DNA of 64,000 bases, taken from assembly GCA_903813345.2 (NCBI GenBank), contig CAIIXF020000012.1, positions 6,657,615 through 6,721,614 on the forward strand, given 5' to 3'. The translations under genes and the position numbers were made by a program. The notes beneath the pieces were generated by a model that was not told the DNA's origin, searched no databases, and saw nothing but the letters and a program-made list of their open reading frames with translations. Source of the DNA: Owenia fusiformis. Lineage: Eukaryota > Annelida > Polychaeta > Sabellida > Oweniidae. Of this stretch, positions 20,801 to 53,099 are shown in pieces. Each line of letters starts with the position of its first letter. Within the stretch, counting starts at the first letter, position 1.

Positions 20801-23800
20801 TATGAGGTCAAAGTACCTACAATTGAAGGGTTTACACTTTGATATTTACACAAAATTATATCACAGCACAGTCGCATCGGTAATGGATTATGCATCTGGA
20901 ATCTGGGGTCTGCATAGAAAAACTCATAGTTTTACCAATAAAGAACAATTTAATGCCATAAGGACCTTCTTGGGTGTCGGTAAAAAATGCCCTATCAGCT
21001 TTTTAGAAGGCTAGTGTGGATGGACCCCAAATTATATAAGACATTATATAGAAGGTATTCGATTATTGTATAGATTAGTTGTTAATTGTGAAGAAGCCAA
21101 TATGGCAAAGAAAGCATTTAGATGGGATTTAAGCTTAGCCAAATTGAAATGTGATTTTACCTGGAACGAAGAAATCCAGAGCATATGTAAAAGTGTTGAC
21201 ATGCTGAATATGTATGATGATATTAAAAAATGTAAAGATTTAAAAAAATTTGTGAATCAAATGAAAGGAAAATTAATGAAATTACATGAAACTCAATGGT
21301 TGGAGACAATTAGGGAAAAAAGAAAATTGACTTTTTATAAGAGCTTTAAATTATCTTTTCAAAGGTCTGAATATTTATTTTGTAATTTTTTGAATAGAAA
21401 ACAAAGATCTGTTTTAGCTAAATTTCGATCTGGCACTTTACCTTTAGAGATTGAAACGGGTAGGTGGCAGAATATACCAAGTCAAGAGAGATATTGTAGG
21501 CAATGTAAGAATGAAATAGGTGATGAGTTTCATTTTTTATTCAAGTGTAAAGTTAATCATAAATTAAGAGAGGAAATGTTTTGTAAAGTAAAAGGTATAT
21601 ATGATCTATTTGAGTCTTGTGATAATGAAAAGAAAACAATGTACTTATTAATTCTAAATCACTCTGTAAATATGTTTCAAATTTTTTGCTTTTGTCTTTG
21701 GAGGCTAAAAATAGATTAAAGTAAGTGTTAATTCTGACTTATCTGCTTATAATATGATTGTAATTGTGTCTCATAAGCCTTTGGAGGCTGGCCGTATAAT
21801 TACGGGTGACACTGTAATAAATAAATAAATAAATAAATAAATATATATTGTTAACTGCACTATAGGTATGATTGAAATCGGTTTTAAATGTAAGCACATA
21901 TTATAAGACTGTTTCAATTCCTATATTCCAGAGCAAGAAGGAGAAGCATTACCCGACAAATACCATCCGCTATTATCAAGAACAATATTAGACGAGCAGT
22001 ATCCGGATTTAAGAGGTACATGTGCTTCCCATTCTAGAAATATGTACCAGATTTAAAATATATGTATTCAGATTTTATATGTATTTTCCATTTAACTAGT
22101 CCATAATATGTGTCCGTGTTTTAGAAATATGTGTTCAGATTTAAACTGTATTTTCTTTTAGGAATTCTTGTATCCGCATTCATTTATCAGGAATGTACTT
22201 GTATCCGCATTCATTTATCAGAAATAAGTATTCAGATTACACCGTTTCTCATTTAGAGCACTAGGCTGTATATAATATGTATCTGTCTTTTAGAAATATG
22301 TATTCTTTAAACTGTATTTTCCATTTGAGAAATAGGCTGTGAATCCATCTTTTAACAAGGAATTTAATGGATTGAAACATTGAATAAACCTCGAGTTCAC
22401 CCATTGCATTTACATTTATTCACGAATCTCCTTGCAATTTTCAGGACAGTTAGCTAACCTCTCACGCTCACAAACGCCACTAAGCAGCTCCATGTCAAAG
22501 CGACTACGCCGCATGGGGACAGTATCTAAAATCAAAGTAATGAGCAAAGAAGTCGGGAAGGAGAAACGGTCTAAAAAGGCTAGATGAATATTAAAGTTGA
22601 TGTTTGGACTGAAATTAAGACAACGGGTGCTGCCCCTAGATTGCCAAGAATCGGGACTTGAATGGGGACTAGATTGCCAAGAATTGGGACAGGGACTGAT
22701 AGAGACTTTGACAGAGAATAACAGTGTGTGATTAAACATGTAATGAAATATGGATCTGTGTCATGTGTGTCAGATTTAAGTTCAGTTTCGCTATTTCTCA
22801 GCGATTTTGTTAAAAGTTTAATGTGAATATTGAAACAACAGAAACGTCTTTGGATTTGGATCAAATTACGGCAGGAATACAAATAAACGAATAAAAGCAT
22901 TCGCATCGTATGGCGTCATTGTGAGTGACACTGTTCTTAAGAAATGAAATAAATAAGTAGGAAAAGAAATTGAATACCCCTGGGTTGTGTGGAATTGTCC
23001 CGGTCCCATCCTATGCGAAGTGATCGGAGGTTGGCAATATGGAAACGGTAAAGGACGAGAAAGGGCGACAAAAATCAAATAAGAATTGCACTGAGCTATC
23101 CCCATGGCCATTTTCTCATTAAATCGTGATTCATTGCGGGAGCTTTAAAGAGTATCTTTAAACGACTCCTCCGTCACAGCTACGCGTTTTGTTACCGTGA
23201 AAACACATGACATGCATACTTTATTATTATTCACCTTATTTAGATACTGAAATCTTATTGGTTCTAAGTTGCTAGTAACTTGGCCATATCTGACCTTTTT
23301 CAAAAACTGACCAATATTTTTTAATGTGTTCCGATAGATCACCTGACCGCAAATTGGCCTTGTGCTGGGCTCCGCCAGCGTAGGAAGAAGGGAAAGTGTT
23401 TTATTTGCCAAAAATCGCAGCCACATCATCGTTTTGCTAAACATTGTTTTTTGTTACTAGGGTGGTATTCATAATACCTGACGTCATACATTATGTTTTC
23501 ATGGAATCTGCGATATGACGTCACAATAACAATGGCGTCAAATATCACCATTGGTAACAATATGGCGGATGAGGATGTGTGAGAAAAATGTGATTTTTTA
23601 GATAAAAAACGTTTAAGATTGATCTTTAAAAACAGCAGAATGGGGAATATAATAAGCTTTCCCGTGGTGAATCCCCCCATAACGTTTGAGATGGACACCG
23701 ATTTTGCTCCAACAGGTAAACCGTTTAGTAGTGAATACAGTGCAGCAAAAGTTGCTGGTTTGTGGTAAAGCTTAGGCGAGCCTGCTAAACTCTGTAAAAG

Positions 23801-31495: not shown

Positions 31496-31621
31496 TCAAG
31501 AAGTATCCAGTCGTATCATGCGTAGTTTATGCTGGTCAGCTAATACACAGGCAGCCTCGTTGGAGCCACCACAGTAATGGGATGATGAAAACACTGTCAA
31601 TAGTTTACCTCTCTGTTGGAC
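31496..31621 (-). CDS. Terminal exon of the Nudix-EF-PPP gene
   Basis: It enters in phase 0 after a TTGCAG acceptor and encodes [20 protein letters not shown] then [15 protein letters not shown] before TGA. This supplies the C-terminal PPP motif that normally reads SAPNYC. It is separated from exon 18 by the minisatellite and is easy to miss because no long ORF marks it. Confidence 0.9.
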   Translation of the reverse strand, partial: VQQRGKLLTVFSSSHYCGGSNEAACVLADQHKLRMIRLDTS

Positions 31622-34600
31622 CTGCAAGTAAATGTGAATATGAATGCGCATGCGGGAAAGTACATGAAATTGTTACAAAACACAGAAAGAAAAAGAAAAC
31701 ATCTAAGAGTGCACCAGTCACAAGGAAAACAAACCCCAACTATCCAAAATCATAATCCAATGTGAAAAGAAACAGTGTCTTATACCCCCTCCCACATCAT
31801 TCAAGTAAGACATTTGAGAAGAGGGATTTTGGTGTTGAAAAATCAGAGTGGAGTTCAATGTGGTGGTATTCAGGGTGGGCTGATGTGGGGGATATTCAGG
31901 GTGGGTCAATGTTGGGAACATTCAGGGTGGGTCAATGTTGGGAACATTCAGGGTTGGTCAATGTTGGAGATATTCAGGTTGATTCAATGTGGGAGATATT
32001 CAGGTTGATCCAATGTGGGGATATTCAGGGTTTGTCAATGATGGAGATGTTCAGGGTGAGTCAATGTTGGGGATATTCAGTTTGATTCAATTTGCGAGAT
32101 ATTCAGGTTGATTCAATGTGGGGATATTCAGGGTGGGTCAATGTTGGGAACATTCAGGGTGGGTCAATGTTGGGAACATTCAGGGTTGGCCAATGTTGGG
32201 GATATTCAGGGTGGGTCAATGTGGGGGATATTCAGGGTGGGTCAATGTTGGGGATATTCAGGGTGGGTCAATGTTGGGAACATTCAGGGTGGGTCAATGT
32301 TGGGAACATTCAGGGTTGGTCAATGTTGGGGATATTCAGGGTGGGTCAATGTGGGGATATTCAAGTTGATTCAATGTGGGAGATATTCAGGGTTTGTCAA
32401 TGATGGAGATATTCAGAGTTTGTCAATGTGGGGATATTCAGGTTGATTCAATTTGGGAGATATTCAGGGTTTGTTAATGTGGGGGATATTCAGGGTGAGT
32501 CAATGTTGGGGATATTCAGGCTGATTCAATTTGGGAGATATTCAGGGTTTGTCAATGTGGGGATATTCAGGGTTTGTCAATGTGGGGATATTCAGGTTGA
32601 TTCAATTTGGGAGATATTCAGGGTTTGTCAATGTGGGGGATATTCAGGGTGGGTCAATCTTGGGGATATTCAGGATGGGTCAATGTGGGGGATATTCAAG
32701 GTGGGTTAATGTTGGGGATATTCAGGTTGATTCAATGTGGGGGATATTCAGGGTGAGTCAATGTGGTGGATATTCAGGGTTTGTCAATGTGGTGGATATT
32801 CAGGGTGGGTCAATGTTGGGGATATTCAGGGTGGGTCAATGTGGGGATATTTAGGATGGGTCAATGTTGGGAATATCCAGCGTGGGTCGATGTTGGGGAT
32901 ATTCACAGCAGTTAAGTGTGGGGGATATTCAGGGTGGCCTCTTAACAATAAAGCATCTCATATATTGATGGACATAAAGTTACCATATATACCTGAAATC
33001 CTACTTGCTGGACCTCATGGGCACGTATAACATGAGACAAATTGTTGCGCTCCAAGAATGACATAAGAGCAGCTGTACTAAAGAAATATGCAGTCCCACG
33101 ACGTGTGTTGTGAATAAAACCTTCATTTTCCTCCAAATCTGCTGCGACTTCTTTTGTCATTAAGTCGGAACTAAAAATAAAAATAAAAAAATGATATACC
33201 AGTATACACAAGTGTAGTAATACACTACACTTAACCCTAGCAATTATAATTACTACGCTCTATTTTTGATATAGACATGATGCTCAAATGTCCCTAAAAG
33301 TAGCTGTAATGCTTGAGTATGTAGCTCTAGATTGCCAAGAGCATTGTTTGTTACCCATCTTATAAACCCTACTACTCTTTGATACATCAATAAACTATGA
33401 TATATTGATAGTTTAACTTGTTGCTTATTTTGAATAAATGCAATCTCTGACATCATCAAGCTAGGAAATTTATCATAGTTTCTTTGTGACAGAGTCTATT
33501 GGAAAGGTCTATTAAAGGAACAAAATGCTTAAATGAAGTCACACTTATGATCTTCATAGTATTTCCAATGGATTAATTAAGTACCTGATCTTTCATTTGA
33601 CACCAAAAACAGCTCAAACAGATCACATTAGAGTTGAAAATAGATCATGAAAAAATATTTTCGATGTATCAATTTATATATTTCAAGTTTTTAGCAATGC
33701 CATTGAAGATGGCATTGTTGTTTGCATTAATTATCCACTCAAATTTGATAGGATTTTCAACCATACGCCATCTTTTAATCCAAGAGTTATTTAAAACATA
33801 CACTTTGTGAAAAGGGGTAATTCACTTCTTTTGATCTCTGAACTTCAAATGCTGTTTTCTATGCAAGTGATTTTTTCACTTCAGTATTGACACAAATTAA
33901 AGTCTTTATCATATTTGATTGAGTGTGAAAGTAATAGGTCTCAAATAATATTTTGTCCCTTTTCCTTCAAAAATAGGCGCATTGCCTGTTTAATCCAATG
34001 AAACCTGTATATCTGCACACTTAACTAATTTGAACACCCTTAACATAAAAGTTTTGAAAGACAAATTTTTATAACGTACCATAAACTTCTATGTTAAAAA
34101 CCTCGAAATATGTAAACCTGACAATCTGAACACTTGGGAATTCCCTGTAGTGTTCAGATTACACAGAGCCAAAGCAAGGCCAACATATCTCTTACCCTAC
34201 AGGGTCGCTCCACATAATCTCCCAGGCTAATTGTGACTCTTCTTCTGGGTCTTTTAAGGGTACAGGTATTTTATTTATTGCCTCTATTTTGCCCCCTAGC
34301 TCATGTATGGAGGGAATACCACCATGAACACAGAATATCTGAAAATAAATCGTAATACTCATAATTACTTTACAATTCATTGAATTTTTTCAAAAGGAAA
34401 AACTTCTTATAGCGCAGTCAGATGTCCCTTTGGTAGTTCGACTTTTTCAGGAAAGCAACAAACTTGGCACAGTTGTAGAAACATATGATCTGAATGAAAA
34501 ATGATTTCGGGGCAATTGATTCGGGGTGGTCTTCATGGATTTTAAGCCTCTGACCCCCACCCCTATCAGGCGGGGAGGGGGTACATTATAATAAAATAAA

Positions 34601-37600
34601 TAAAAATAGTTGTAAAGTATATTTCTTTAAATGACTTCATTTGGTCATTGCTTTGAGCCTTGAAATTGAGAAAAACCTATTTTAGAAGTGGTGTTTAGGA
34701 AGGAAAATACATTTTAACCCAATTATCTAGCGTGAATTCATCTTTCAAAGGGTCAAATATAGGACATCAAGTACTGTATTTCAAGAATGTGATGTCTGAT
34801 CATCCTGAAAAAATTCATACTAATAGAGATATTGTTGTTAATCACTCATATGATATATGGCTTGTGTTAGTCATGTATTTTTTGAGAAATAAATTATCGA
34901 AATTTGGATATTTAAGCCCTTGCGGCCTAGGGGTGACCTTATTTTACCGTAATAATTTTTAAGATACGCGATGTTTGGGCCTCATATGAATTCTAAATGT
35001 TGCATTAAGTATTGTTTTGTCATATTATTCCTAATTAGATGTAAAAAAATTATTGAAAATAAAAAAAAAATCAAATTTTCATTTTCGGTTCTAAAGGGCC
35101 AGGGGTAACCATATTTTACCCTAATAATTTCCCAGATATATAATATATGCATCTCAAATTAGCTCAAGATGTTGCATATAGTTCTGTTTTATCATACTTC
35201 TTCCAATAAGATGTAGAAAATGATCGGATATATCTAAAAAATCAAAATTTTCACTTAAGCTCTTGATGGCCCTGGGGTAACCTTATTTTACCTTAATAAT
35301 TTTCTAAATATGAGACATAGTCACCTCAAATGAGCTTAAGATGGTATATTTAGTCCTGTTTTATCATATCATTCCCAAGGAGCGAAAAAATGATTGGAAA
35401 TTATAAGAAAATTACATTTTCATATTACACCCCCAATCCGCAACATCTTCTTGCAGTGCTGTAAACAGTACTGAACAGTGCAGTCAGAGTACTGCACTAT
35501 ATAGCAATGTACAATGCTATTCTAACACCATCAGTTTTGGACAGCGTAGTACAGTACTGTTTTTACAGCTCAGTACTGTTTTAGAAAACAGCTGTGTACA
35601 GTACTGTTTTTACAGCACTATTTATGAAACTATGCTGTTTGATGCAATTTGAGATTGGTAGTGTAGTTTATGATAGGTCAGGAATGACCTAATTTTACCT
35701 TAAAAATTTAAACAAAGATATATCATATTGTCTACTCAAATGAGCTCAAAATAGTGAATATAGTCTAGTTTTGTCATATTATTCCTACTGAGATATACAA
35801 TTATGATTAACAGTTATAAAAATTGAACCTCAACAGCCATTTATTCCTTTCTAGTACCAATGGCAATACTATCTAGTTTTATAGAACATTTTCTAAGATG
35901 TGAAAATGTTTGATAAGTCCAGTTCATACTAGCACGAGTAGTAGCATTGTTAAGATTCTGTATATTATCATTTGAGTATATAATCCAAATCTATAAAACC
36001 TAATCAAAGGAGTCACAATTTATGGATTCTGACAGTCTCCCCTACAGCTACATAGCTCAGAGCAAATCAGATCTGCTTTCAAACATTTGCATCTGTTCTC
36101 TTGACACAGGTATCTACCCCATGACCTACATTTTATGTTGTGGCCTCAGTATCAGCAGTGGGAGTAGGCCAGCCACATTCATGTGGTGATAGAAACTGTG
36201 GTTAAGAATGCATCAGAATGAATAAGGACTCTAGTCTTCTAATTTTAGGGTATCAAAAAAGATTTAAAGCTTTAGAACACTTGCGTAACCTCTGGGTACA
36301 CCTTCTATTCCTGCAAATCAGTTGACTAAGAGTAGTAGCAGAATGCATCTAGAGATTGTATGAAAAATGGTAAGGGCTAAACTTCGTTCATGGCCAAGTG
36401 GCCTTGAAATATCAAAGACAGGTCGTACATTCTAGAGGAATTTCCCCTCACCATAGGCCATATGCAATCCAAATTGACATTTTCAGCACAAGTTACTGCC
36501 AGTTTAAACCACACCAAAATCAACTGTATTGACTATGATTCTTATTAGGTCATGACAGAAGCAGTCTTTGGCATGCTTCTTCATACGAGCGAATGGTGAT
36601 GGCAGATACTTCACTATCGGGCTAAGATATTGCATTACCTCATTGTGAGGTCACAATCTTCTTGCCATCTTCCTCCAGGGTTTCAGTTTTAATGCCTGGA
36701 AGGAAAACAGCTCCCTCTTGTTCCAACTATCTTAGGAAATCTTGCCAATTCCACAGAAGAAAATTAGTAGGATATACTTTCCTCACTGTTCCAGTTTTGT
36801 GCTGTTTGTATTTATGCTCATTAACATCAAGGTTGAATGACTAAGCTACATAGTAGATGCCAAAATAATAGACAGGGCATGTATAGTTAAACATGCTAAC
36901 AGTGATATATAAAGAAAATTGGGTGATTATGCAAATATGATATTACCCAGTAAAAGTCTGCAAATAGTTCATTGCCTTGATGTCAGCTGGAATGTTTACC
37001 AGGACACTAGCTTAAAGGGGCAACAAGGTCTGTAGAAGATTCAATTTTTTTACTTTTTCTGAGCTATCAGGGTAATATTTGGCTCAACATCTTCTTTGAC
37101 ATACCTATTTTCTTAAAATGTATGGATAAACTATCAATTTTAGCATTAAGAAGTGTAAATTCAGTTCAAAGCTTCTATAAAGGGAGGCCCACTTATAGAT
37201 TTTTAAGATCCAAAACATTTCAAGAGGAATCAGTTGAAATAATGTTCATCCAGGGGGTTTCTTTGGAAAAAAATAAACATATATGTTAGTCTTGATGAAA
37301 TATCCAAACTTGAATATATTTTGACACTGGTCCATGATCGTTGAATGGCCCCTTTGCACTAATTGTTGCACCTTTAAAACAGCACTAGAGAGACTTGTGG
37401 AACTGGAACAAGGATAGTCTAAGGAGGAAACTGAAACCCTTGAAATGGATGGAAAGAAGATAGTGACCACATAAATTAAGGAGGCAATGCAATGTTTTAG
37501 CCCAACAGTGAGGTTCTGCCCTTGCTCTTAAGAAGAAGCAGCTTCAAGGATATTTCTCAATATTTTCAGTAAGACTGCTTCAATCATGGCCTTCAAGAGA

Positions 37601-40600
37601 AAGAATAATACTCCTTACATTTAATTCTGATGTGGTTATCCTGGCATATATGTGATGTTAAAAAATGAAAAAGTCAATTTGGATAGCATATGGTAAGGGA
37701 GAAATCCTATCAATATCTACCTGCCCATGGCCAAAGTTTAACCCTCCCCATTTTTCATACAATCATTGGATGTGATGTTACATCTGTATTCTACTGCTAT
37801 GGAAAAATGGAATGAATGGATTGAGATTTAAATGTGTCACTGAGTTTTCTAATTGTTGTTAATCATTATCTCAGTAGGAATAAAGTGAAAAACAGACTAT
37901 TTTCCCCATTTTGAGATCATTTTATCTTGAAAATTAATAACATTTGGCATTCTTGTGCCCAATCATTGACTGTCAATATTCACTGACAGAATCCTTGACA
38001 GAAGCAGCTCACCTTAACCCCCCCCCCCCCCCATCAGGCTAAGGTGACTGGACTTACTACCCTTTGCATTCATTCGACTTTCCTTCTCAAAAGAGAGCTT
38101 CGTCTTCACTCTATCAGTTTTCAATAAATCTCTGAACTCACTGCGCTAATCAGAGTTTGTTGTCGAAATAAGGACGACTTTCTATATGGTCATTTTCTCT
38201 GACGAAATCGCATCATTAATGTACACGCATTTAGCACTTGTTCATTTAAGCTGGCTGATTGGTTGAGAATAGGTCAGCATGGTTTATTGCAGCTTGGGTC
38301 ATAAATGCTTTAAGACCCAAGCTGCCAATGGCATTGGTCATGGGGACGGGGCTGCTAAACTCACTCCATCCTTTGCTTCTATATAATGGTAATATACGAT
38401 AAAATCACCTCTGACCTGTCAAAAGCTAAAGATGTCATTTTTCAAATTTCCATTATTTTTTACATCTCCTAAGGAATAATATGACAAAACAAGAGTATAT
38501 GACACAATTTTAAGCTCATTTGAGATGCATACGTCTCATAATTAAGAAAAGTTCAAGATTAAATAAGCCCCCCCCCCCCCAGGCCATCATAAGCTAAAAT
38601 GAAAATTTCAAATTTTAAGAAATGTCCAATCATTTTCTAAATCTTATTGGAGGTATTATGATTAAACAGAACTATATGCACCATCTTGAGCTTATTTGAG
38701 ATACATATATTACAAACCTTGAAAGTTATCAAGGTAAAATATGGTTACCCCTGGCCCTTCAGAAGCGATAATGAAATTTTTTTTTTTTTGAAAAGTTCCA
38801 ATCATTTTTCAATCCAATTAGGAATAATATGATAAAACAAGACTCAATGCACCATTTTGAGCTCATATGAGACTCATACATTGCATATCTTAAAAATTAT
38901 TAAGGTAGAATAAGGTTACCCCTAGGCCGCAAGGGCTTAAAAATTCAATTTTCGATAATTTTTATCTCAAAAAATATGTGAGCTACCCAAGCCATATTCT
39001 ATATTTGTGATGAACACCTATACGCCTATTAGTATGATTTTTTCCAACATGATCAGACATCACATTCTTGAAATACAGTACTTGATGTCCCATATTTGAC
39101 CCTTTAAAATATGAATTCACGCTAGATAATTGGGTCAAAATGTATTTTCCTCACTAAACACCACTTCTACAATCGGTTTGTCTCAATTTCAAGGCTCAGA
39201 GCAATCACCAAATGAAGTCATTTAAAAAAATTTACTTCAAAACCATTTTTATTTATTTTTTATAATGTACCCCCTCCCCGCCTGATAGGGGTTGGGGTCA
39301 GAGACTAAAAAATCCATGAAGACCACTCCAGATCACTTGCCCCGAAATCATTTTCCACTCAGATCAAGTGTTTCTACAACTGTGCCAAGTTTGTTGCTTT
39401 CCTGAAAAAGTCGAACTATAAAGGGCTCATTTCTGGACATCTGACTGCGCTATTAATAAGTAGAGCTATTTAGTTTGAATAATTTGCCTCATTTACAGGA
39501 ACATGTAGCTCATTGGTTCAAAACATTATTACACTAACCCAATCTTATTATTAGCGAGATCAATAGTGCAAAAATAGTTCATTCAGGGAACGAAGCGTGA
39601 AACTTTCCACATATCATCAGAATACCATTCCCTTTGATTTAAGAGCCAGAGCCATTTTTGTGGTCTACTAGAATGATCAAAAAATAGTAAGAACCCCCTC
39701 CCACCAAATCCCATGGGGGTGGGGAGATATCGAAATATTTTTTTCATAAAAAAATTCTTTGAATATGGTCATACTACAGTTTTAGAGTGCTATTTTCATG
39801 GTAAAGAAATTTTGCAAACATAACAAGATGATTTATCATCGATTTTCATCATTGTTAAAGACTAATCATGGGCGACGCCCACTTTTCATACCTTGAACAT
39901 TTAGGTTATTAAATCTCTATCATGGGTTGAACAAATGAATGAAATTCAGTTTTCTGGATAACACCAGATACCTTTTTGATGTAAGGTGCTATAATTAATC
40001 GTAGCATTTGACTTCTTAAAGGCTTAGACCATATCACACCCCTGTTTAGAAGAAGAAAGCAAGCAACAAATGTCCCAGATCTACAACATGTATCCAATAT
40101 TCTATGTACATGTATGAGTCTCTATTTTCTCCTGAAGAGAACCTATGCTACAGATACAACTGTCCAGAACTTAGATGATAATGTGCTTAAACAGTTTGAT
40201 GAATGGTGTGCTGACCAAGTGCCTAAACAGTTTGATGAATGCCGTGCTGACCAACAGAATGTACCAGTCTTCAAGCTTTGGTTTCTGCTTATTCAAATTG
40301 AAATACTGTGCCTTGACTATGTGAGGGCTATAGGACAGGAGAATTTTCCTCTTTATTTCCAGATGGTTTCTCTTTGATTTTCATAGTTGTTAAAGACTAG
40401 TCATGGGCGACGCCCACTTTTCATATGCTGAACATTTAGGCTATTAAACCTCTTTCATGGTTTGAACCGGAACCAGAAGGGCCCCCACAGTCACAGCCTG
40501 CAGTCTCTTAATTCTCAAGAGAGCCTATACTACATATACAGCTGTCCAGAATCTAGATAATGAAGTGATAAACAGTTTGATGAAAGGTGTGCTGACCAAC

Positions 40601-43600
40601 AGAATGTACCAGTCTTTAAGTTTTGGTTTCAGATTATTTGAATCGAAATACTGTGCCTTAACTAAGTGTAGGCTATTGGAGAGGGAAATTTCCCTCTTTA
40701 TCTCCAGTCAATTAGCAAGCTTGTCACCTGGTTTTTCGTTTTTTGACCTTATCAATATGCTTGCTGAGTACCAGTTCAGTATATCATCAGAACTCAAAGT
40801 TCAAAAATGGATAGCTTTTGGAAAAAAATTAGAAATATCTCACTTCCCATGAAATTGCAGCTGCCCTTTGACATGGTAGGACTATGTTCTCCCCTTATCT
40901 CATGCTCCCACAGGTTCAGACACTACACCAGCAAAGGCTGGGAAAATGATTTGGGTGCCAGAGTAGAAAACATTGCCCCAAGCTTCAGATGCAAGCCAAA
41001 TGCTAGTAAAATGCAGGGATTGTAATGGACATGACACATAGCTTAGTGATAATGATAATTGATGATATTTGAACTGCAGTTAAGATACCTAATAAGGTAA
41101 CTTGTATCAATTAGTCAAAGTGCTCTCATTAAAAGCCAAAATAATGTATCATTAATTATGAATTATATATTATTATATCTTTATATCTAAAAGGGATGTG
41201 GCCTTTTAATTGACTTACTTAAAGAATTCATCATCTTAACATAAATAACTGACTTAATCTTATCAATTTTATTATTAGGTAATTTTCCTATTCATAATAG
41301 AAGACTCATTAACTTGTATATTAACATGTTGATAAAGTGGGCGTCGCCTTTGGTCAGGCTTTAATAATGAATATCCATGAGAAATACGGATGCAATCTTG
41401 AAAATTATTTTTATACACTGAAAATAACATACTAAAAATGAATATAGATCATATTCAAAAAAAATCAGCAAAAAAATACTCTCCTCCTCATTTGCAATTT
41501 TTCAGATATCATCAGGGGGTCATTAACAGAACTTTCGCAAAGTTACGATTTCGCAAGTCAATTGTTAATTTTACAAATTTGGTAAATGTGCATTAACAGA
41601 ACTTTCGTAAAGTTACGAACGATTCGCAAAGTTACGAAAAAATGACATCACATGTGCTTTCGTTCGTAACTTTAATAGCACCTCAGACCCTTTCATAACT
41701 TTGCGAATGGCATATTTCTCATCCAGTTCTTATGTAAGGGATACAGGTTGGCAAAAAGAAATTGTTCTTTATATGCATGCTAAGTTTCAAGCTAAAATAT
41801 CCACCTATTCTCACATGATAAGCAAATATGTTCCTGAGCTGGGAATCTTTGAAATCGCCGAGTCAGGTTTAATCACAGCGCGCAATGATATCAAATGACA
41901 TCATATTTTTATTTGTGCTAAATAATGATATAAGATGACGTAACAATTTGAAATTCGCTTACGAACGATAAAACTTATGAATGACTTACGAAAGTGTTCT
42001 GTTAATGGCCGATTCGTAACTTTACGAATTCGTAAGTCATTCGTAACTTTTTAAATAATTACGAATTTCATAAAGTTGCGAATTACGAATTCGTAACTTT
42101 GCGAAAGTTCTGTTAATGACCCCCTGGACACCATTCCCTTCGATTTAAGAGCCAGAGCCATTTTTGTGGTTCACTAGAATGACAAAAAAGCACTTGCATC
42201 TTTTTGTTGAACACTGTTGTTTGCAGCTGCATTTTACTAGCATTTGGCATGCATCTGGAGCTTGGGCAATGTTTTCCACACTGGCACCCAAATTATTTTC
42301 CCAGCCTTTGTAGTAATGGATTCCCAACTCAATTGTGAGGGTGAAGCGAGGACTGACATAGGTATAATTGTCTGGAACCAACTTATGCAACTAATGGTGG
42401 GATGATGGTGACACATAGTCCTTCCTACCATGTCAAAGGGCAGCTGCAATTTCATGGGAAGTGAGATATCTCTAATTTTTTACTTTTCCAAAAGCTATCC
42501 ATTTTTGAACTTTGAGTTCTGATGATATACTGAACTGGTACTCAGCAAACATATTGTCAAGGTCAAAAAACAAAAAACCAGGTGATAAGATTGCTCATTG
42601 ACTGGAGATAAAGAGGGAAATTTCCCTCTCTGATAGCCCACACTTAGTTATGGCACAGTATTTCAATTCAAATAATCTGAAACCAAAACTTAAAGACTGG
42701 TACATTCTGTTGGTCAGCACACCATTCATCAAACTGTTTCTCACTTCATTATCTAGATTCTGGACAGCTGTGTATGTAGTATAGGCTCTCTTGAGAATTT
42801 AGAGACTGCAGGCTGTGACTGTGGCGGCCCTTCTGGTTCCGGTTCAAACCATGAAAGAGGTTAAATAGCTTAAATGTTCACTGGTACTGGTACATTCTGT
42901 TGGTCAGCACACCATTCATCAAACTGTTTAGGCACTGGGTCAGCACACCATTCATCAAACTGTTTAAGCACATCATCATCTAAATTCTGGAAATTTGTAT
43001 CTGTAGCATAGGTTCTCTTCAGGAGAAAATAGAGACTCGACATACATGTACATAGAATAGTGGATACATGTTGTAGATCTGGGACATTTGTTGCTTGCTT
43101 TCTTCTTCTAAACAGGGTTGTGATATGGTGTAAGCCTTTAACAAATGCTACAATTAATTATAGCACCTAACATCAAAAAGGTATCTGGTGTTATCCAGAA
43201 AACTGAATTACATTCATTTGTTCAACCCATGATAGAGATTTAATAACCTAAATGTTCAAGGTACGAAAAGTGGGCGTCGCCCATGATTAGTCTTTAACAA
43301 TGATGGAAATCAATGATAAATCATCTTGTTATGTTTGCAAAATTTCTTTACCATGAAAATAGCACACTAAAACTGTAGTATGACCATATTCAAAGAAATT
43401 TTTTATGAAAAAAATATTCCTACATCTCCCCACCCCCCATGGGATTTGGTGGGAGGGGGTTCTTACTATTTTTTGACCATTCTAGTGGACCACAAAAATG
43501 GCTCTGGCTCTTAAATCAAAGGGAATGGTATTCTGATGATATGTGGAAAGTTTCATGCTTCGTTCCATGAATGAACTGTTTGCCTGTTTTCTTGCACTAT

Positions 43601-46600
43601 TGATCTCGCTATATGCCCAATTATTGAAAAAAAACTAGAAAACACCAACTCCACAGCATAGCAAATCCCACCAAACCAAACCAAACCAAACCAAAGTCTT
43701 TGTTCAGTGGGATAGTAATTTGAGCAGAGATTATTCATGGTTCAAAATGTTTCAAAAATATTACAATACCATACCTTATAATCTACAGTAGCGGCTAGTG
43801 GCATGACATCGAAGCAATCATTTATAGCTTCCCATATCTGAGATCCTATGTTGTCTCCAAACTTCTCGAGACATTCACTGCAATAAGAGCAACTAAGAGA
43901 TATTACTAATTACATAAGGGATTTGACATTCAAAATACTGCATATTTACTTTTGAAAGTATGTTACATAGCTGTTCGTTTTTGGTACAATCGTAATCTAC
44001 AATACTGAGAAAACTATTGTCTATTTTTTGATGAACAATGACTTGCGACCAAATTGTAAGTAAAGACAGTTCCAAACACCGACCCCTGGAGATTTACCAA
44101 GATATGATACACAAAGATTTTGTATGTTTTCATATTGATTTCTATTTCAAATTTGAATTCCATTTCACTTGAATTATTACAAAGACCCAAGTACTTATTG
44201 TAATTACCACTGTCTATACGTTTACATTTATATGAATCTTTCTTTTAAATGAGTGAAATCAAACTACTTACGTTTCAAATGAAAACATCTTTTGGACGGC
44301 TCTTAGTTCATGGTTACCCCTGAGGAGGAAAAACTTTTTCGGGGCAAGAATCTTCTGAGCAAACAAATAGGCAACAACCTGAAATAGTTAAACATAAGAC
44401 TTAAATAATGTTGCATCAATACAATAACATAGCCCAATTCCAAAATAGGAGGCAAATTTAAAAAGAAGAGGCAAAACTTAAGTGGCGAGAACAATCATTA
44501 TACTTTTATAAAAAAAAATAATGTTCACAGTCTATGTAAAACACATAAAAAAATTCTGTAACATTGAATGTTTTAGAACATAACATTTATTCTTACAGTC
44601 TGAAAGGTTGAAATATTTGGATTGTACATAAATCTAAAGACTGACACTTACCTCTATACCACTCTCTCCTCGGTCTACATAGTCACCCAGAAAGAGGAAA
44701 TTGGCTGGAGTAATGAGGGGACCCATACGCCAAAGAGACTTCTCAAAGCATACAAGATCTCTATAGTTCCCATGGATGTCACCTGTAATTAATCATGCGC
44801 ATAATTTCAAATCCAACAATCTGATAGGTTAAAAGCTAATATACCCTTTTATTTTTATTTTGCATTATTTTTCAGTCTTTCTGAGTGCCTTATCATGATA
44901 GGTTGTAATTTTTTAAAAAAGAAATGTATCCATAAGTCTAACCTGAAACACTTACCTAGAATATAAGTAGGAGACTTTAGTCTTAAAAGCCTAGATTCCG
45001 ATGAAAGGATCTCTTTAACCTCCCTACATAGAGCAAGCAGACATTTGGCTAATGCTGCTTTATCAACCTGGCCCCAGTCAAATGGCTCCTATCAAAAATA
45101 TGAAGGGCATATTAAAACAACTGCATGTTTACTGGATTGTTCAGGTTATCCACTTGTTTAGTAATTAACTCATTAAAGCGGTTATTATGAATTTTGCGAG
45201 TGATTTAATAAAAAACTAACATTATATACAACCGTTGCCCCCTCTAGCTCCCCTATGCAAGATAAAAAGCAAGAGACTCGGAACAATAAGAATAACATAC
45301 AAACTGTATAACATACCTTTGTTAATGTACCATTGGCCCCTTTGATAGGTCTTTCAAAGTATCGCAGCCCTGTCAACATCTCATTGGGATGGGACCGCTG
45401 CGAACACAAAACATAAACTAAGATACACAGTATAGATTTATAGAACATTTTTACATAGGAGACTGAACAATTCTATTTCAATCTGTACATAGTAATTAAA
45501 AATGTAAAGTAGACATGACAAGTTATTGAAAAATGCAATATTGGAATAATTTAAAAATAATTCTTAAAAAATTAAACATGTCAAATGACTTTCTAAAATG
45601 ATATGATAGGGTCAATTATTATTAATTTACAGATGCATTAAATAACAATGAGTTCAATTTCTGGCTAAATTAACTGTAGCTTTACATCCACCATAGAGAG
45701 GGTGGAATCAAACAACTGTAAACAAAGTGAATGCCTTTGAAGTGGAATGCTTTTGAAGTAGTTTTCCACTTGGGAAGATGTTCATCATAGAGATATTCAT
45801 TTCAAAAGTGTTGATGAGAAACGTGACTTTGGAAAAGTTTTCACTTATAAAGGTGTTCCGTTCCAATCATATTACATACTTAACTAGGTGTTCCACATAC
45901 TCAGAGGTGTTTCACAAATGTGTTTTATTGTTCATGTGTACCTGATTAAAGGAGTCGACTGAGGGCATTCGCTGAAACCTTGTCTTATCTCCCTCCAGAT
46001 CTAGAGGACCTACTCCTCCAGCACTTACAGCAGCTGTACCTAAAAGAGAGAGTGATACGTAACACTTAACTACAGGTTAGATTACAAACAAGATTATGGA
46101 CAAAGGCCTGCATATAATTGATAACACAATATCAACCTGTTCGTTTCTTTTAACTTATATGAAAATAATTTTTACATACTAAAATATCAGACAAGGCATT
46201 AATAAGCAAAATGTCACCACCTAACTATTTGTTACATTTATTACACCTGCCAAAGCGGCTGTGGATTAACTATGTCACCAATATATTTTGAAAAACTCTA
46301 CCCCCTAAGATTTCTTACCTTTGGAGGTCCCATATTCTTACCTTGGAGGTCCCATATTGCCATGACATCAGACAATGTGCCTGTTCGCCTGACTTTCACC
46401 GTATGTGTTGCTAGCTCATATTTTTCAAATGATATCCGATGTGAGGATGCAGAGGGGGAGGGGGAAGGCTCTGGTGACTTGAAGATAAAGTCCTCAAAGG
46501 CATCCTCTAAAATGTGAAACAATATTACATATGTGGTAAAATGTGAAACATGTTAAAATGTGAAACAATATGGCTAAAATGTCAAAATGAAAGCAATATG

Positions 46601-49600
46601 GCTTACATGTAAATAAATGTGAAACAATATTGCATACATGCAAAAATGTCAAACAATAGGCCTATGATAATTGGCTTGGATGTTAAAATATGAAAGATGG
46701 TATTTTATGTTTAATGTGAAAAATATATGCATCCTGAAGCAGCAATTTGACAGAAAGGGTCACACCTTAACATACCAGTAGATGTACACTCTTGACAGCC
46801 AACAATTTGACTGACTAGATCCCACCTTAACTTACCTGTTGTATTGAACTGTGAGATGTCAATGTCCAAGGGGGATGTCTTGAATCGTTTAGCAGGTCTA
46901 TGAGGGGGTGAACTTGTGGGTGAGCTATTGGGAGAAGAATTGGGAGAGCCATTCTGAGGTGAAGCTGGTTTCTTAGAAGATCTGAAAAACACAAGCATGA
47001 TTGAATAGGGGGATGTCTTGAATCGTTTAGCAGGTCTATGAGGGGGTGAACTTGTGGGTGAGCTATTGGGAGAGCCATTCTGAGGTGAAGCTGGTTTCTT
47101 AGAAGATCTGAAAAACACAAGCATGATTGAATAGGGGGATGTCTTGAATCGTTTAGCAGGTCTATGAGGGGGTGAACTTGTGGGTGAGCTATTGGGAGAA
47201 GAATTGGGAGAGCCATTCTGAGGTGAAGCTGGTTTCTTAGAAGATCTGAAAAACACAAGCATGATTGAATAGGGGGATGTCTTGAATCGTTTAGCAGGTC
47301 TATGAGGGGGTGAACTTGTGGGTGAGCTATTGGGAGAAGAAATGGGAGAGCCATTCTGAGGTGAAGCAGGTTTCTTAAAAGATCCGAAAATATATACCAA
47401 CCCTATGTAACTACAGTATGTTTGTGAACAAATAGTTCAGAAGACAGTAGAATTGTCGATTTAACCTCACTTTGGTTAACCAGTGTAATCAAGTTGAGTA
47501 CCAGTGCTTTTAATTTACAAAATGGACCCTACTCTATCTAACACAGCATATTTTTTAATACTTACACATGGTCAGATCTGACACAAGAATGAGGTAGTCT
47601 GAAGAGTAGAGATGTTCCCCTAAACTTTAACTGGCCCACTGCAGCAAGGAAGTCTGCCAGGGGAAGGTTATCTTTTGCTTCAACAGCAAACACTCTGCAA
47701 AATAACATGCAGAATGAAAATAAGTGGAAATTAACACATGACGAGTAATAACACATGTGGAAAATAACTTATGGATTGGAAAAGAACATGTTGAATAAAA
47801 ATATGGGGAAACTAATTATTGGAAACTGTGAAAAATTTTCCAATTATTACTTTGGAATTATTACATACAGTTCAATAACAAATGTTGAAAATGAGCCAAT
47901 CAATCTTAATAAAATAGATGTTGTCATTACTTGGCACTTGCAACGGCATCTTTATCAACTGATTCCTCATCAATGGGAAGGTTTTTCAGCCTTCTAATAT
48001 CTCTAACCAATTGTCTGAAAATGAAGCCAAAATATTTTTGAAATTTTATTGAGATAATTGAGAATTTTCTGAAAATGCCACCGAGATATGTGGTGGTAGG
48101 TCTAATTTAGTTATACATGTGTCCAAAAACTTAAGTTCAAAATAATTCAATTATCATAAGCAGTTTATAAGCAGCTAAATTTATAGTATGAATGCCATGG
48201 TTGCATTGTGTAACTTACTTGAATTCTGTAAATTGCAGGATGCCATCTTTATTGTTGTCATAGTAACGGAAAATATATCTACATCTTATTTCAGCTGGGG
48301 TTCCTCCATGTTGAGTTGCAGGTTCCATACAACCCAAACCTTGTAAAATGTCATGGAAACTGAGTAGTTTACGATCATGGCGATCAAATGCCCTGGAAAT
48401 AAGTTTAAGAGTGAAGATCAATATGGGTATACATTCCATGCGTTAAATGTGCATTTTTCAGAAAATGGACAAAAATTATGATTTCATGCACTTAAGTTAA
48501 ATGAAATCTGTCTTTTCATTTCAAAGCAATTGAGATTAATTCCAGATTAAGTAAAGGAAGAGTGCTTTATGCTGGACACATATATGAAATCATCAAGTTC
48601 TTAGACTATTGAAAACATATCCATTTTGTCTCCTTTGGAACTCATTAGAGCTCAAACTGACTTTTACAACACAAACTGACACTAAAAGAAATAGAAACTA
48701 AAAGTAAAAAGGAAATACCTAAAAGCAGACTTCAGACTATCATTATCTCCTTTAAACCCCTTTTTCACAATGTATTTATTGAAGGAAGTTTCATTCATCA
48801 TTGAACTTGGGTAGCAGGCGTCTGTGTACTGACTGTATATCTTTTCTTGTTCTGAAATGTAAGTTCAACAACATGAGCATGGCTATATCAGGTATCAGGT
48901 ATATCAGGTGTCTTCATCATGTTAGTCATTAATTGTGTTTAAATTACTCCTCAATACATATGTACACTGCTATTCCAAGGACATTTTTCAGGGCATCCGG
49001 GGATTCTGACTCTATGATGGTAAATGGGCTCAGAATCTGTCTGATATTTTATTGTACCATTGCATATAATTTCACTATTAGGCTTGAGTACAACCTCCGA
49101 TCACAGGGCTTCAAAATCCAGAATATATTCTTTCTTTTTACCTCCTGCGATAAGCAGTTAGCATTTCCCTGATTAAGAACTCGCAATCTGATTGGCTGTC
49201 GCAACACTGCGACAGAAATCATGTGTAAGTCACTGCGCATAGTTAGATCACGTGATTCAGTTAAAACGGGCGCCCCAAATTGGTTATAGCAGGGGGAAGA
49301 AGGAGGTACAGATTCTGGATACCTGCTTAGGAGGATGGCTTGAGTACTATTTCTACCATTATTTTGCTTTTGTACATAAAAATTTAGAACTTGTGTAGAA
49401 CCATCCAGTTCTTGATTTACAGTGTCAGAGCACTGGCGGATTCCGGGCCCCCCCCCCCCCCTCGGGTGGGCCCAGAAAAAAAAATTGGGCCCAGAAAAAA
49501 AATTGGGCCAAAAAAGGCCTTGAGGCCCCAAAAAGTGGGCCTTTTTGGTCATTACTGGGCCTTTTAAGGCCTTATTTTTTAATTTCAGGCCAAATTTGGA

Positions 49601-52600
49601 AGAAAATGGGCCTCAAAATTTCAAATATTGGGCCCACTTTGGGGTTTTAGGGGCCCAAATTTTTTTTGTTGATTCCCAGATCCGCCCCTGCAGAGTGTAA
49701 TTTTGCGTCTGACCCCTAGAGACAATAGTATAACTAGGCACATGATGAACAATATCGCGAAAAAATCAAAAATGCCTGCCATAAAAATTTACCCAGCATG
49801 CCTAAAACAAATACAGTAAAACCTGTGTATATTGAACATTTTTTGCCAAGAAAAAAAGTTCAGTGTTGGTAGGTGTTCCCTATGGAGAGGGTAATTTATA
49901 CAGAAGTCAGTTGAGTATGTCGGAGGAAGGGTGTCTACTAGAGACAGGTGTTCATTAATGAGAGGTAGTCACTAAGACAGGTTTTACTGTAGACTTGATT
50001 TTCATACCACCAAATGTCCCTGGAAGTAAAAATATCAGACTATCACCTTTTTTCCCTAGTTTTGCAGCCCGTAGCAGTAGTTCTTGCATGGAACTCTGGG
50101 AAGAATCTACCTGCTTTGTGTCAATTAAATCAGGGATTTGATCATGTAACATGTTCAGTGGATGCACTTCATCTAAAATTAAAGCAAATCAGCTGGCATA
50201 TTATATACATTTTTAATTTTTCACATTTAACCTGAGTTTGAAATAGGTTACTAGTACTGACATTTACAGGGTGAGCCAAAAATGATTCTACTGTTAAACC
50301 TTTAGTTTTCACAATTCAATTCTATGTCGTACTCTCCCATTAATTCTGATTTGACAATATCTTACATTATATTAAGGATGGTTCAGAAATACTCTAAATA
50401 AACTTTCCTTTAATTCGAAGCTGAAAATATTAAAACATTCTCACTATTCTTGGCTTGTTCTGCGAGTTCATAAGGTTCAGGACCAAGTATGTGCTCATCC
50501 AAGACTGTAATTAGTTTCAGTTCTTCTATTGTGAACCACCTGAATGCCTCTAGATCCTGCAACACAAAATAAACCACACATTGTCATTGCCGCTGCCACC
50601 AATGTTTTTAAACTTTGGCAGTCTTTGTATGTGTATTTTGTATGTACTAAAATTGATAAAGAAGAATAAAAAATAAATAAAAAATAGAAATAAATTTGTC
50701 ATTTATAAGTAAGACATAATATGACAAATTGTCACCACCTTGTTGCTCTTAATATTATGTGTTGAATTCTAAGTCAGATTTGATCTTCTGAGAACTTGTA
50801 GATGATTTTGAAAAAATGGTCAATTTGCCAAAACGCTGTCACAAAAGAATTGAGAATACAACAATATGTCACCATATTGCATAAAAAATTATAAAATTTG
50901 AAAATTTTCTTTTTAAAAGATAGCAAAATTATCCACCCAGAAAATCCTGGGGAGAGCACAGAGTAGTTCTTGTGGATTTACAAGGAAGATGCAAAAATCT
51001 TTTATAACATAAGAAATGAGATCTATGTAAGTCTGACTTTTTCAGAATTTTGCCACATTGTCTTTTAATTAATAGTTTATCTGGAAATAAAGTTGAAACT
51101 GAAATTTAAAAGAAAATAGGCATGACATTGGTTCTAACCTCCTTGCCTTCCAGTCCTTTTCAGTTATAAAAAGATCCTAATGTTTAGCCTTTTGTACCAT
51201 GGGCTTTGTCAATATCGAAGAAGAAATGCATTTCTTACCTTTATTGTCTCTGATGCAACAGGTTCAGTCATAAAGAAGATCTGTGTTTGATTGCAATCGC
51301 CTCCCATTTGTTTATCTAACCGCAAGATTCCCTTTAATTGACAGGTTGCTCCAGTAACCTGTTGAAACAAAAATGAGAACATGCATACTCAGTTCAAAGG
51401 TATTTTTAATATTGTAGTGAATGGGCGTCAGAAAATGTGGTAGGAACACATTCCAAAGTCTGTCAGCTAAAAGATTTGTTAATATTTAATATATAATTTG
51501 TGGGGGAATGTTTAGTCTCATTTTTGACATGTAAGCAGATACAGTAATCATGTTCTTATTTTTTGGTTATTTCTTAATATCATACATGAAAAGCACAAAA
51601 CAAGATTTTCTTTGGAATGTGTACAGGAAGCATTTCTTTGAAAACCTTCCTCCAAATTAATTAATTTTGAAAACCCAAGACAATGCTTATGTATGAAGTA
51701 TGAGGAGTTGCCATTGTTCAGACCCCTCCCACTCTTTCCTCGAGTCCCCTCCCCATTGGTTTTAAACAACAGGCTGTCCAACTGTCCCGCAATTTGCGTA
51801 TTTGTCACTTATTTGCTGAAGAAAATGAAGTCATGCCAGCATTTTTAGTGTGACAGAATATGTCACGCAAATACGCATTTAAACCTGATAATTGTTGAGC
51901 AAAAATATTTCTGTAGAAGAACATGAAAAAATGAACGCTGATACATCAAAAAGTGAATGCCAATACATCAAAAAAATGAACGCCGAAGAAAAACTAAGAA
52001 ATTCTCCATCTAAAATGTCACTCGACTTTTTTGTGATTATGAGTCAAAGAAAGCATTCTTGAGTTTCAAATTGACTTCTGTGGTAACTTGAAACCATCTT
52101 CTAATTTATTCCACTTACCTTTTATTGTTTCTCCAAATATATTCTTTGAAAATCAGATTTTAAGGGTGTTAATCAGGGTGATTCTGTGCCATTTTATCAA
52201 AAATCTTGTTGCTATCTAGAAACGAGCAATTGTGATCTTGTTGTTACCTAGGAACGAGCAACTGTGATGTCACGTCACACTCATGTTAATTCTGGAATCA
52301 CATGGCAGCCATTTTGGAAATTTCAAAAAAGTTCCCAATTAAAAAGGCTAAATGCTGTTCACAAATTGGAAACTATGGCAGAATCAACAAAGGGTTTGTG
52401 AAATAATTAGGATATGCTTTCAAAATTATGCACATGACAATATATGACTACTAGCCTAAATGCAGGCAGAGACTTTTAATTGCCAAAAAGTCGAGGGACA
52501 TTTTAGATGGAGAATTTTTTAATGCACTTTGTTCAGAATTTTCATGGGAATTCCGTATTTGTCACGCATTTGCTTTGAAATTTGTGCATATGTCATGCAT

Positions 52601-53099
52601 TTGTTTTGAAATTATTTGCCCCTACCAAATTTTCAACTCGAGCGATAGGGAGCAGGAAAAATTGAGGTGTCCGATATTTTGACTAAGGTGTTCAGTTTTG
52701 GACCAAGGTGTCCACAATTTGAAGGAAGGTGTTCAATTTATAAGTCACCCATGTTAGGTGTTCCCAAGTTGACAGGCTTGGAACAAACACCCTGCCAGGA
52801 TAAATAGAACCCCCTTGGTTAATCCCGGCTAGTCTGATGCATTTACTTGGCCTGTGATTGAAATAAATAAATAAAATTCCAATTGAAAATAAATTCACCT
52901 TTTCTGCAAAATTATTTGCAGTGACTTTCAAAGTATGTGAAGTGTTGCATTTACAATGCGGCAACCACCAACCCCTGTCGTCCAGTTTGTTCATAAGGTA
53001 TCTGTCTCCATCTGTACTGGGTATAAGAATCCCGATCAGCTCTTTTGGTGATGCATTCTTATCAGTTTTGAAACCGAATTTTGAATCTTCGCACTCCAT
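31496..53099 (-). CDS. Nudix-like / EF-hand / PPP-type Ser/Thr phosphatase, 19 exons
   Basis: Exons in gene order: 52899-53099, 51239-51358, 50445-50556, 50047-50172, 48719-48851, 48219-48392, 47931-48014, 47566-47694, 46836-46981, 46342-46506, 45942-46039, 45317-45397, 44956-45088, 44652-44782, 44272-44378, 43775-43877, 34196-34338, 32993-33170, 31496-31621. All phases agree: 2490 nt, 829 codons plus stop. Residues about 18-150 are Nudix-like ([27 protein letters not shown]). Residues 232-289 form an EF-hand pair, one degenerate and one canonical ([12 protein letters not shown]). Residues 360-430 are a Ser/Pro-rich linker with RPAKRFK. Residues 525-829 are a PPP catalytic domain: GDIHGN (568), GDYVDRG (600), RGNHE (631), HGG (686), WSDP (724), RAHE (778), FSSSHYC (799), covering all metal-binding motifs. 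Expected action: metal-dependent dephosphorylation of Ser/Thr, possibly calcium-tuned. It is not standard PPEF, whose EF-hands are C-terminal. Confidence 0.93.
31849..32940 (+). repeat. 25-bp minisatellite, roughly forty copies
   Basis: The unit is close to GGGTGGGTCAATGTTGGGGATATTCA with variants GGTTGATTCAATTTGGGAGA and GGTTTGTCAATGTGGGG, plus blocks repeated at higher order. The + strand is rich in G and almost free of C. The array occupies the last intron of the phosphatase gene, ending about 50 bases from the exon 18 donor. Because 25 is not a multiple of three, all three forward frames stay open; those ORFs are not genes. Confidence 0.95.
34910..35830. repeat. About 180-bp tandem units inside the foldback 1 arms
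   Basis: Three to four diverged units begin with GGGGTAACCTTATTTTACC and contain CAAATGAGCTCAAGATG and TTTTATCATATTATTCC. The complementary array is at about 38410-38970 in the other arm. The duplication therefore predates or accompanied formation of the inverted repeat. Confidence 0.75.
35455..35622. mobile_element. Small MITE with AGTGCTGTAAACAGTACTG ends
   Basis: The ends AGTGCTGTAAACAGTACTG and CAGTACTGTTTTTACAGCAC are inverted, with repeated CAGTACTG in between. It is present in the left arm of foldback 1 only, so it inserted after the arms existed. Confidence 0.7.
39551..43613. mobile_element. Giant foldback 2 (about 4.1 kb inverted repeat)
   Basis: AGCGAGATCAATAGTGCA (39554) pairs with TGCACTATTGATCTCGCT (43595), and GAACGAAGCGTGAAAC, CCATGGGGGTGGGGAGAT, CATAACAAGATGATTTATCA and GGGCGACGCCCACTTTTCAT have complements in order on the right. 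The GGGCGACGCCC block occurs four times (about 39868, 40405, 41340, 43272). ORFs inside, such as 40114-40377, match no family I know. A separate element sits at its centre (41513-42126). Confidence 0.8.
41513..42126. mobile_element. 614-bp MITE with CAGGGGGTCATTAACAGAAC ends
   Basis: The perfect ends CAGGGGGTCATTAACAGAAC and GTTCTGTTAATGACCCCCTG are followed inward by TTTCGCAAAGTTACGA-type repeats on both sides. It interrupts the centre of foldback 2. No transposase ORF; the ORF at 41701-41898 is not recognisable. Confidence 0.85.
43671..43694 (+). repeat. (CCAAA)n microsatellite
   Basis: Five near-perfect CCAAA units just outside foldback 2, in intron 16. Confidence 0.85.
45705..45935. repeat. 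Diverged GTGTTCC-rich repeat, CAGTAAAACC-family-like
   Basis: Repeated TTCCACTTGGGAAGATGTTC, GGTGTTCCGTTCC and GGTGTTCCACATACTCAGAGG resemble the interior of the MITE copies at 49814 and 60678, but clear ends are missing. It lies in intron 11 of the phosphatase gene. Confidence 0.4.
46836..47395 (-). repeat. Tandem array duplicating exon 9 and its 3' splice site
   Basis: Four units (138, 126, 138 bp, then the terminal exon) each encode [13 protein letters not shown] then [18 protein letters not shown]. The first three are followed by TATTCAATCATGCTTGTGTTTTTCAG-like branch/acceptor sequence. Acceptors after + positions 46981, 47107 and 47245 are intact AG; the outermost copy (47383) has GG. 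Only the innermost unit has the true 3' part and donor at 46836. Unit lengths are multiples of three and no stop interrupts them. Confidence 0.9.
49433..49690. mobile_element. MITE with CACTGGCGGATTCCGGG ends
   Basis: The left end CACTGGCGGATTCCGGGCCC and right end GATCCGCCCCTG are imperfect inverted repeats, and CAGAG flanks both sides as a possible 5-bp duplication. The interior alternates GGGCCC-type and poly-A/C tracts (poly-C at about 49449-49461). It lies in intron 4 of the phosphatase gene. Confidence 0.6.
49814..49989. mobile_element. CAGTAAAACC MITE, best-preserved copy
   Basis: CAGTAAAACCTGTGTATATTGAAC at the left is matched by CTAAGACAGGTTTTACTG at the right, with TA on both sides (49812-49813, 49990-49991). 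The interior holds GTGTTC-type repeats. Confidence 0.78.
52000..52515. mobile_element. MITE with near-perfect 30-bp ends
   Basis: AATTCTCCATCTAAAATGTC followed by ACTCGACTTTTT (left) is complemented by AAAAAGTCGAGGGACATTTT then AGATGGAGAATT (right). It contains two AACGAGCAA(C/T)TGTGATxT copies. It lies in intron 1 of the phosphatase gene; a longer relative is at 23836-25505. Confidence 0.82.

Follow-up and report, generated by a model that had tools for sequence, protein, structure and literature searches.

The window analysed here is a 64,000-nucleotide stretch of the annelid Owenia fusiformis (NCBI GenBank assembly GCA_903813345.2, contig CAIIXF020000012.1, positions 6,657,615 to 6,721,614 of the forward strand), and all positions given below are those of the window. 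Its minus strand carries, from position 53099 to 31496, a gene of 19 exons whose predicted product combines an N-terminal region that resembles a degenerate Nudix fold, an EF-hand module and a C-terminal phosphatase domain of the PPP family. On balance, the sequence speaks for an animal gene encoding a Ser/Thr phosphatase with its own calcium sensor in cis. The assembly bears 42 matches to exons of Wnt, which is specific to animals, against 0 in 14 prokaryote controls. Exon-wise searches, which can miss genes, gave no match for the hemerythrin family or, with no positive control, for mollusc haemocyanin. For animals, the usual list of PPP phosphatases gated by calcium comprises calcineurin and PPEF.

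The exon chain was rebuilt from the genomic DNA. All 18 introns follow the GT-AG rule and the phase is kept at 18 of 18 junctions. The spliced frame of 2490 nt encodes 829 amino acids plus one stop codon, the first one encountered, at the end of exon 19. A further exon derived from an open reading frame (ORF) at about 49100 was left out of the model because its phase did not fit. The chain consists of the following elements, all on the minus strand:

Exon 1, 52899..53099, minus strand: start codon, with an in-frame stop upstream and the ATG lying in AAAACATGG; first half of the Nudix-like region with the degenerate Nudix box
Exon 2, 51239..51358, minus strand: Nudix-like region; GT-AG, phase 0
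Exon 3, 50445..50556, minus strand: end of the Nudix-like region
Exon 4, 50047..50172, minus strand: linker to the EF module
Exon 5, 48719..48851, minus strand: first, degenerate EF-like segment with the NCS-like ACYPSS
Exon 6, 48219..48392, minus strand: degenerate EF loop 234–245 and canonical Ca2+ loop 276–287
Exon 7, 47931..48014, minus strand
Exon 8, 47566..47694, minus strand: donor placed at 47566 (gtaagt)
Tandem 126/138-nt repeats, 46939..47390, minus strand: in frame, three copies with intact acceptor and exon start
Exon 9 in the 829-aa form, 46836..46981, minus strand: Ser/Pro-rich linker; with two other acceptors, also in frame, the exon would start at 47107 or 47245
Exon 10, 46342..46506, minus strand: linker
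Exon 11, 45942..46039, minus strand: linker
Exon 12, 45317..45397, minus strand
Exon 13, 44956..45088, minus strand: beginning of the PPP domain
Exon 14, 44652..44782, minus strand: GDIHG (split across exons 13 and 14) and GDYVDRG
Exon 15, 44272..44378, minus strand: RGNHE
Exon 16, 43775..43877, minus strand: segment with an insert common to BSU1
Intron 16, 34339..43774, minus strand: 9.4 kb, many inverted repeats
Exon 17, 34196..34338, minus strand: CVHGGI
Exon 18, 32993..33170, minus strand: NTRRG and RAH
Exon 19, 31496..31621, minus strand: SSSHYCGG, C-terminus and stop

The C-terminal PPP phosphatase domain is secure. Pfam Metallophos matched residues 564–783 with an E-value of 2.4e-29, and the PPP motifs GDIHG, GDYVDRG, RGNHE, HGG and RAH are all present (at 568, 600, 631–635, 686 and 778). 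Judged by these motifs, the metal-site set is complete, consisting of D569, H571, D601, N633, H686 and H780. A preliminary description of this stretch, made from the letters alone, had proposed 19 exons joined without a phase conflict into 829 residues, a single polypeptide with EF-hands placed before a phosphatase that holds every PPP metal-site motif, and a layout different from that of PPEF. All of this agrees with the rebuilt model and its domain matches. The gene model holds, and its predicted product is unusual by architecture.

The presence of an EF-hand/calcium part is equally secure, with Pfam EF-hand_7 at residues 225–292 (E 4.8e-7). Its nearest PDB match is KChIP4 (E 4.4e-10), in an alignment over residues ~153–295 that starts well ahead of the EF pair and covers the NCS-like ACYPSS segment. 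By reading, loop 276–287 is canonical, while loop 234–245 has lost its ligands and carries His and Arg at ligand positions; we therefore infer one calcium site. The EF-hand pair of the preliminary description thus stands as a domain match with only one canonical loop, and a KChIP/NCS-like module of this kind appears to describe the segment better than a working pair. A Ser/Pro-rich linker of about 140 residues leads from this module to the phosphatase domain.

The nature of the N-terminal head is less clear-cut. Residues ~16–140 probably form a degenerate Nudix fold, but the support is weak and the preliminary description, which took the Nudix fold as sound, was too confident here; the suggested domain search of the spliced translation returned EF-hand_7 and Metallophos and no Nudix family. 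The head scored 4.9 bits against a profile built from 33 Nudix sequences, a value reached by none of 1000 full and none of 1000 local shuffles (0 of 2000) and exceeding those of 129 of 134 other segments; the five segments that outscored it stem from those E. coli loci whose Nudix genes had gone into the profile. In HMMER, the local alignment to this profile spans residues 96–125 only. The comparison by hhalign was collinear over 102 columns from end to end (P 0.0033, at a probability of only 9.7%). One full shuffle out of 200 attained its score, as against no local shuffle out of 200 (1 of 400 in all) and none of 27 further windows taken from this protein. In the PDB, the Nudix protein 3id9 was matched over a collinear span, 21–125, with an E-value of 1.5. 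Moreover, the Nudix box aligns to that of MutT without gaps over 25 residues, with six of the seven signature residues changed: in GX5EX7REUXEEXGU, the substitutions are G→C, E→H, R→N, E→F, E→K and E→V, and the last G alone is kept. A working Nudix hydrolase was rejected because the box is destroyed. If the head is a Nudix domain, then it is a dead enzyme.

The best placed of the alternatives concerns this same region: the first 145 residues may make up a domain other than Nudix, whether lineage-specific or of another kind, so that the protein would be a plain EF-hand PPP phosphatase. It is favoured by the lack of any Pfam or NCBIfam family in the head at E≤10, by the loss of the box residues, by the low hhalign probability and by the PDB search, in which the ribosomal protein eL21 ranked above Nudix (E 0.04 versus 1.5, also weak). 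A trimmed PDB search again ranked eL21 first, and Nudix was not among its matches. In addition, a seed profile made from 7 E. coli proteins gave the head a score that 9 of 1000 full and 3 of 1000 local shuffles also attained (12 of 2000). The end-to-end collinearity, the ungapped box and the failure of every shuffle to reach the score with the larger profile argue in the opposite direction, and we regard a non-Nudix head as rather unlikely, though a contender to be taken seriously. A scan of genome contigs with MutT covered the best 80 of 247 loci, all enterobacterial, none of which entered the Nudix profile; the same scan of viral contigs found nothing.

A second alternative is that two adjacent genes were joined on paper only, one for a Nudix-like/EF-hand protein (exons 1–8) and one for a PPP phosphatase (from about exon 10). 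The exon joins, including that of exons 1–4 to the rest, come from the genomic sequence alone, the linker exons 9–12 lack homology support here, and the codon score of exon 9 is −0.239, under the null median of −0.125. The codon bias favours the model frame over the two other sense frames in 14 of the 19 exons, among them all of exons 1–4; it exceeds 95% of the null in 6 of 19 exons, which is weak support, the null being the open frames of window positions 1–30000 with transposon ORFs included. The six-frame Metallophos search of the 498-Mb assembly placed none of its 27 listed matches in the window, presumably because the exons are short. The weak codon bias and this search weigh against the favoured reading as a whole. 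Against two adjacent genes stands a chain that stays in phase throughout and meets no stop until the end of exon 19, and protists are reported to have EF-hands fused to a non-PPEF PPP domain (Kerk et al. 2021, PMC8249667, main text). We consider two separate genes improbable. When the N-terminal 360 residues were searched against the genome, all eight matches were the gene's own exons, and this half had no second place.

The genome search with the C-terminal half gave 37 listed matches, some to exons of the gene itself and some to further PPP genes at the catalytic domain. In 13 fetched stretches, three PP1-type genes, PP2A, PP4, PP6, PP5, calcineurin and PPEF (L011) were recognised, these names being read from their sequence and not from database labels. 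In a 12-row tree of the catalytic domains, a split supported at 100/98 set PP5 and PPEF apart from the remaining ten. Among four clades compared, the one uniting the Owenia protein with PPEF was disfavoured with a p-AU (approximately unbiased test) of 0.016, the PPEF row being partial. A divergent PPEF/RdgC with its EF-hands moved to the front would likewise join EF-hands to a PPP domain in a single polypeptide, but it is very improbable in view of these tree results, the separate PPEF-like gene elsewhere in the genome and EF-hands that lie ahead of the catalytic domain.

Further hints come from BSU1. It was the top single-stretch PDB match, with 188.7 bits versus 179.0 for calcineurin, and an insert of 3–4 residues in the exon 16 segment is common to BSU1 and the Owenia protein; nine rows lack it, and the PPEF row is without data at this place. 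Therefore, from the tree tests, the shared residues and this insert, we place the catalytic domain on the PP1/PP2A/calcineurin/Bsu1 side, outside the PP5/PPEF group, with no finer placement by sequence.

Within that side, Bsu1 is one of several candidate affiliations. The best tree united the Owenia protein with calcineurin at a weak support of 64/80, not starred; the grouping with BSU1 was a mere 1.58 log units worse and not rejected (p 0.40), and that with PP1 was not rejected either (p 0.18). Several of the 12 rows are partial, only one is a Bsu1 sequence, and the branches of the Owenia protein (1.22) and of BSU1 are long. Residues shared exclusively numbered 12 in 242 columns for calcineurin and 10 in 239 for BSU1, with 1 to 4 for each of the other four groups. 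By summed PDB score, a calcineurin construct, matched twice, came first. The orthologue search covered collections of bacteria, archaea and viruses; scans of viral contigs with the N-terminal half and with the catalytic domain found no relative. A motif-based scan, given as the best 80 of 94 confirmed PPP loci, had as its top match by E-value one with 34% identity over residues 20–292, and shorter segments reached up to 42%.

Calcineurin, nearest in that weakly supported tree, is itself a calcium-gated PPP phosphatase, but its calcium sensor is a separate subunit, whereas that of the Owenia protein would act in cis. After its catalytic domain, calcineurin A has a calcineurin-B-binding helix, a calmodulin site and an autoinhibitory segment. 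The Owenia chain ends at residue 829, four residues past the region aligned to calcineurin (825), and membership in calcineurin A was rejected because these C-terminal parts are missing.

PPEF/RdgC and PP7 of Plasmodium resemble the Owenia protein in having a PPP domain and EF-hands in one chain. In the parts of the literature covered, however, PPEF/RdgC is described with C-terminal EF-hands and an N-terminal IQ motif (PMC1885993, PMC11559042), while here the EF-hands precede a catalytic domain of another lineage. Bsu1/PPKL shares the insert and the PDB similarity mentioned above, but it has Kelch repeats, and no Pfam Kelch family was found in the Owenia protein at E≤1.

Bsu1 proteins without Kelch but with EF-hands are known as well. 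The main text of Kerk et al. 2021 (PMC8249667) names them from taxa "including" Thecamonas, Monosiga, Salpingoeca, Basidiobolus and Nannochloropsis, which cover choanoflagellates along with further protists, one fungus and one alga, and describes the split as very early. Like the Owenia protein, they combine a non-PPEF PPP domain with EF-hands, when compared by content and with domain order set aside. Their list includes choanoflagellates, the nearest relatives of animals, but in that main text names no animal (PMC8249667), and the word "Nudix" is absent from it, the supplements not being covered. By lineage and layout, the Owenia gene would be a likely animal counterpart of the protist EF-hand Bsu1 phosphatases.

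The novelty claimed in the preliminary description was thus overstated, as EF-hand proteins with a non-PPEF PPP domain, called Bsu1, were reported from protists, choanoflagellates included, in 2021. No description of a Nudix plus EF-hand plus PPP protein was found in the open-licence literature, as judged by titles and the starts of abstracts. Within the literature searched, two things are new: the occurrence in an animal and the Nudix-like head.

If the locus indeed encodes a phosphatase with its own sensor, a mechanism can be proposed. Calcium bound at loop 276–287 would alter how the EF module touches the catalytic domain and thereby switch activity in cis, much as calcineurin B acts in trans on calcineurin A. 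The Ser/Pro-rich linker would let the EF module reach the catalytic domain. More speculatively, the degenerate head could serve as a non-catalytic scaffold or binding site, like the NUDT9-H domain of human TRPM2, which has lost catalysis, binds ADP-ribose and is regulatory according to the parts of the literature covered. That domain belongs to an ion channel, the Owenia head has lost six of the seven box residues, and the comparison implies no ligand for it.

Exon 9 is ambiguous. Its tandem repeats offer three in-frame acceptors that lead to proteins of 829, 871 or 917 aa; these could correspond to isoforms, and such length variants may tune the calcium switching. The outermost repeat copy has TTTTCGG instead of TTTTTCAG. 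In a similar case, the PP5-like gene of the same genome (L007, 2106–2560) has 5.1 copies of a 90-nt unit, together with an acceptor, the beginning of the GNHE exon and a donor-like GGTCAGGTGAC. Duplicated acceptors and exon starts may be frequent in the Owenia genome.

Two introns and the remainder of the window hold further elements. Within intron 16, at 34422–43581, there are 15 inverted-repeat pairs of 60–455 nt that are 77–96% complementary, many of them nested; the pre-mRNA could thus form large hairpins here. Intron 18 contains at 31855–32937 a 26-bp tandem array of 42 copies, probably a minisatellite, across which several plus-strand frames are open. A long interspersed nuclear element (LINE)-type element at 16974–21719 has a long ORF that includes a reverse transcriptase (RVT_1, E 5e-32) as well as an endonuclease-like match under its curated cut-off, and a second reverse-transcriptase fragment lies at 11125–11847. 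Beyond the start of the phosphatase gene, the C-terminal exon of a ZNHIT3-like gene is located on the plus strand at 61833–62144 (ZNHIT3_C, E 1.3e-17).

A bolder reading, which we hold to be a long shot, is that the gene represents a third calcium-gated PPP phosphatase of animals, ancient and of Bsu1 ancestry, lost from the well-studied model animals, in which the dead Nudix domain would sense a ligand of nucleotide or diphosphoinositol type, making the enzyme responsive to calcium and a metabolite together. Apart from this reading, a third calcium-gated PPP phosphatase with its sensor in cis, in a layout described otherwise for choanoflagellates along with other protists, would mean that the calcium-phosphatase wiring handed down to animals is richer than the usual lists show, and the protein would offer a one-chain system for the study of calcium gating. 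Should the head bind a ligand, it would tie a metabolite directly to a Ser/Thr phosphatase, which would be unusual.

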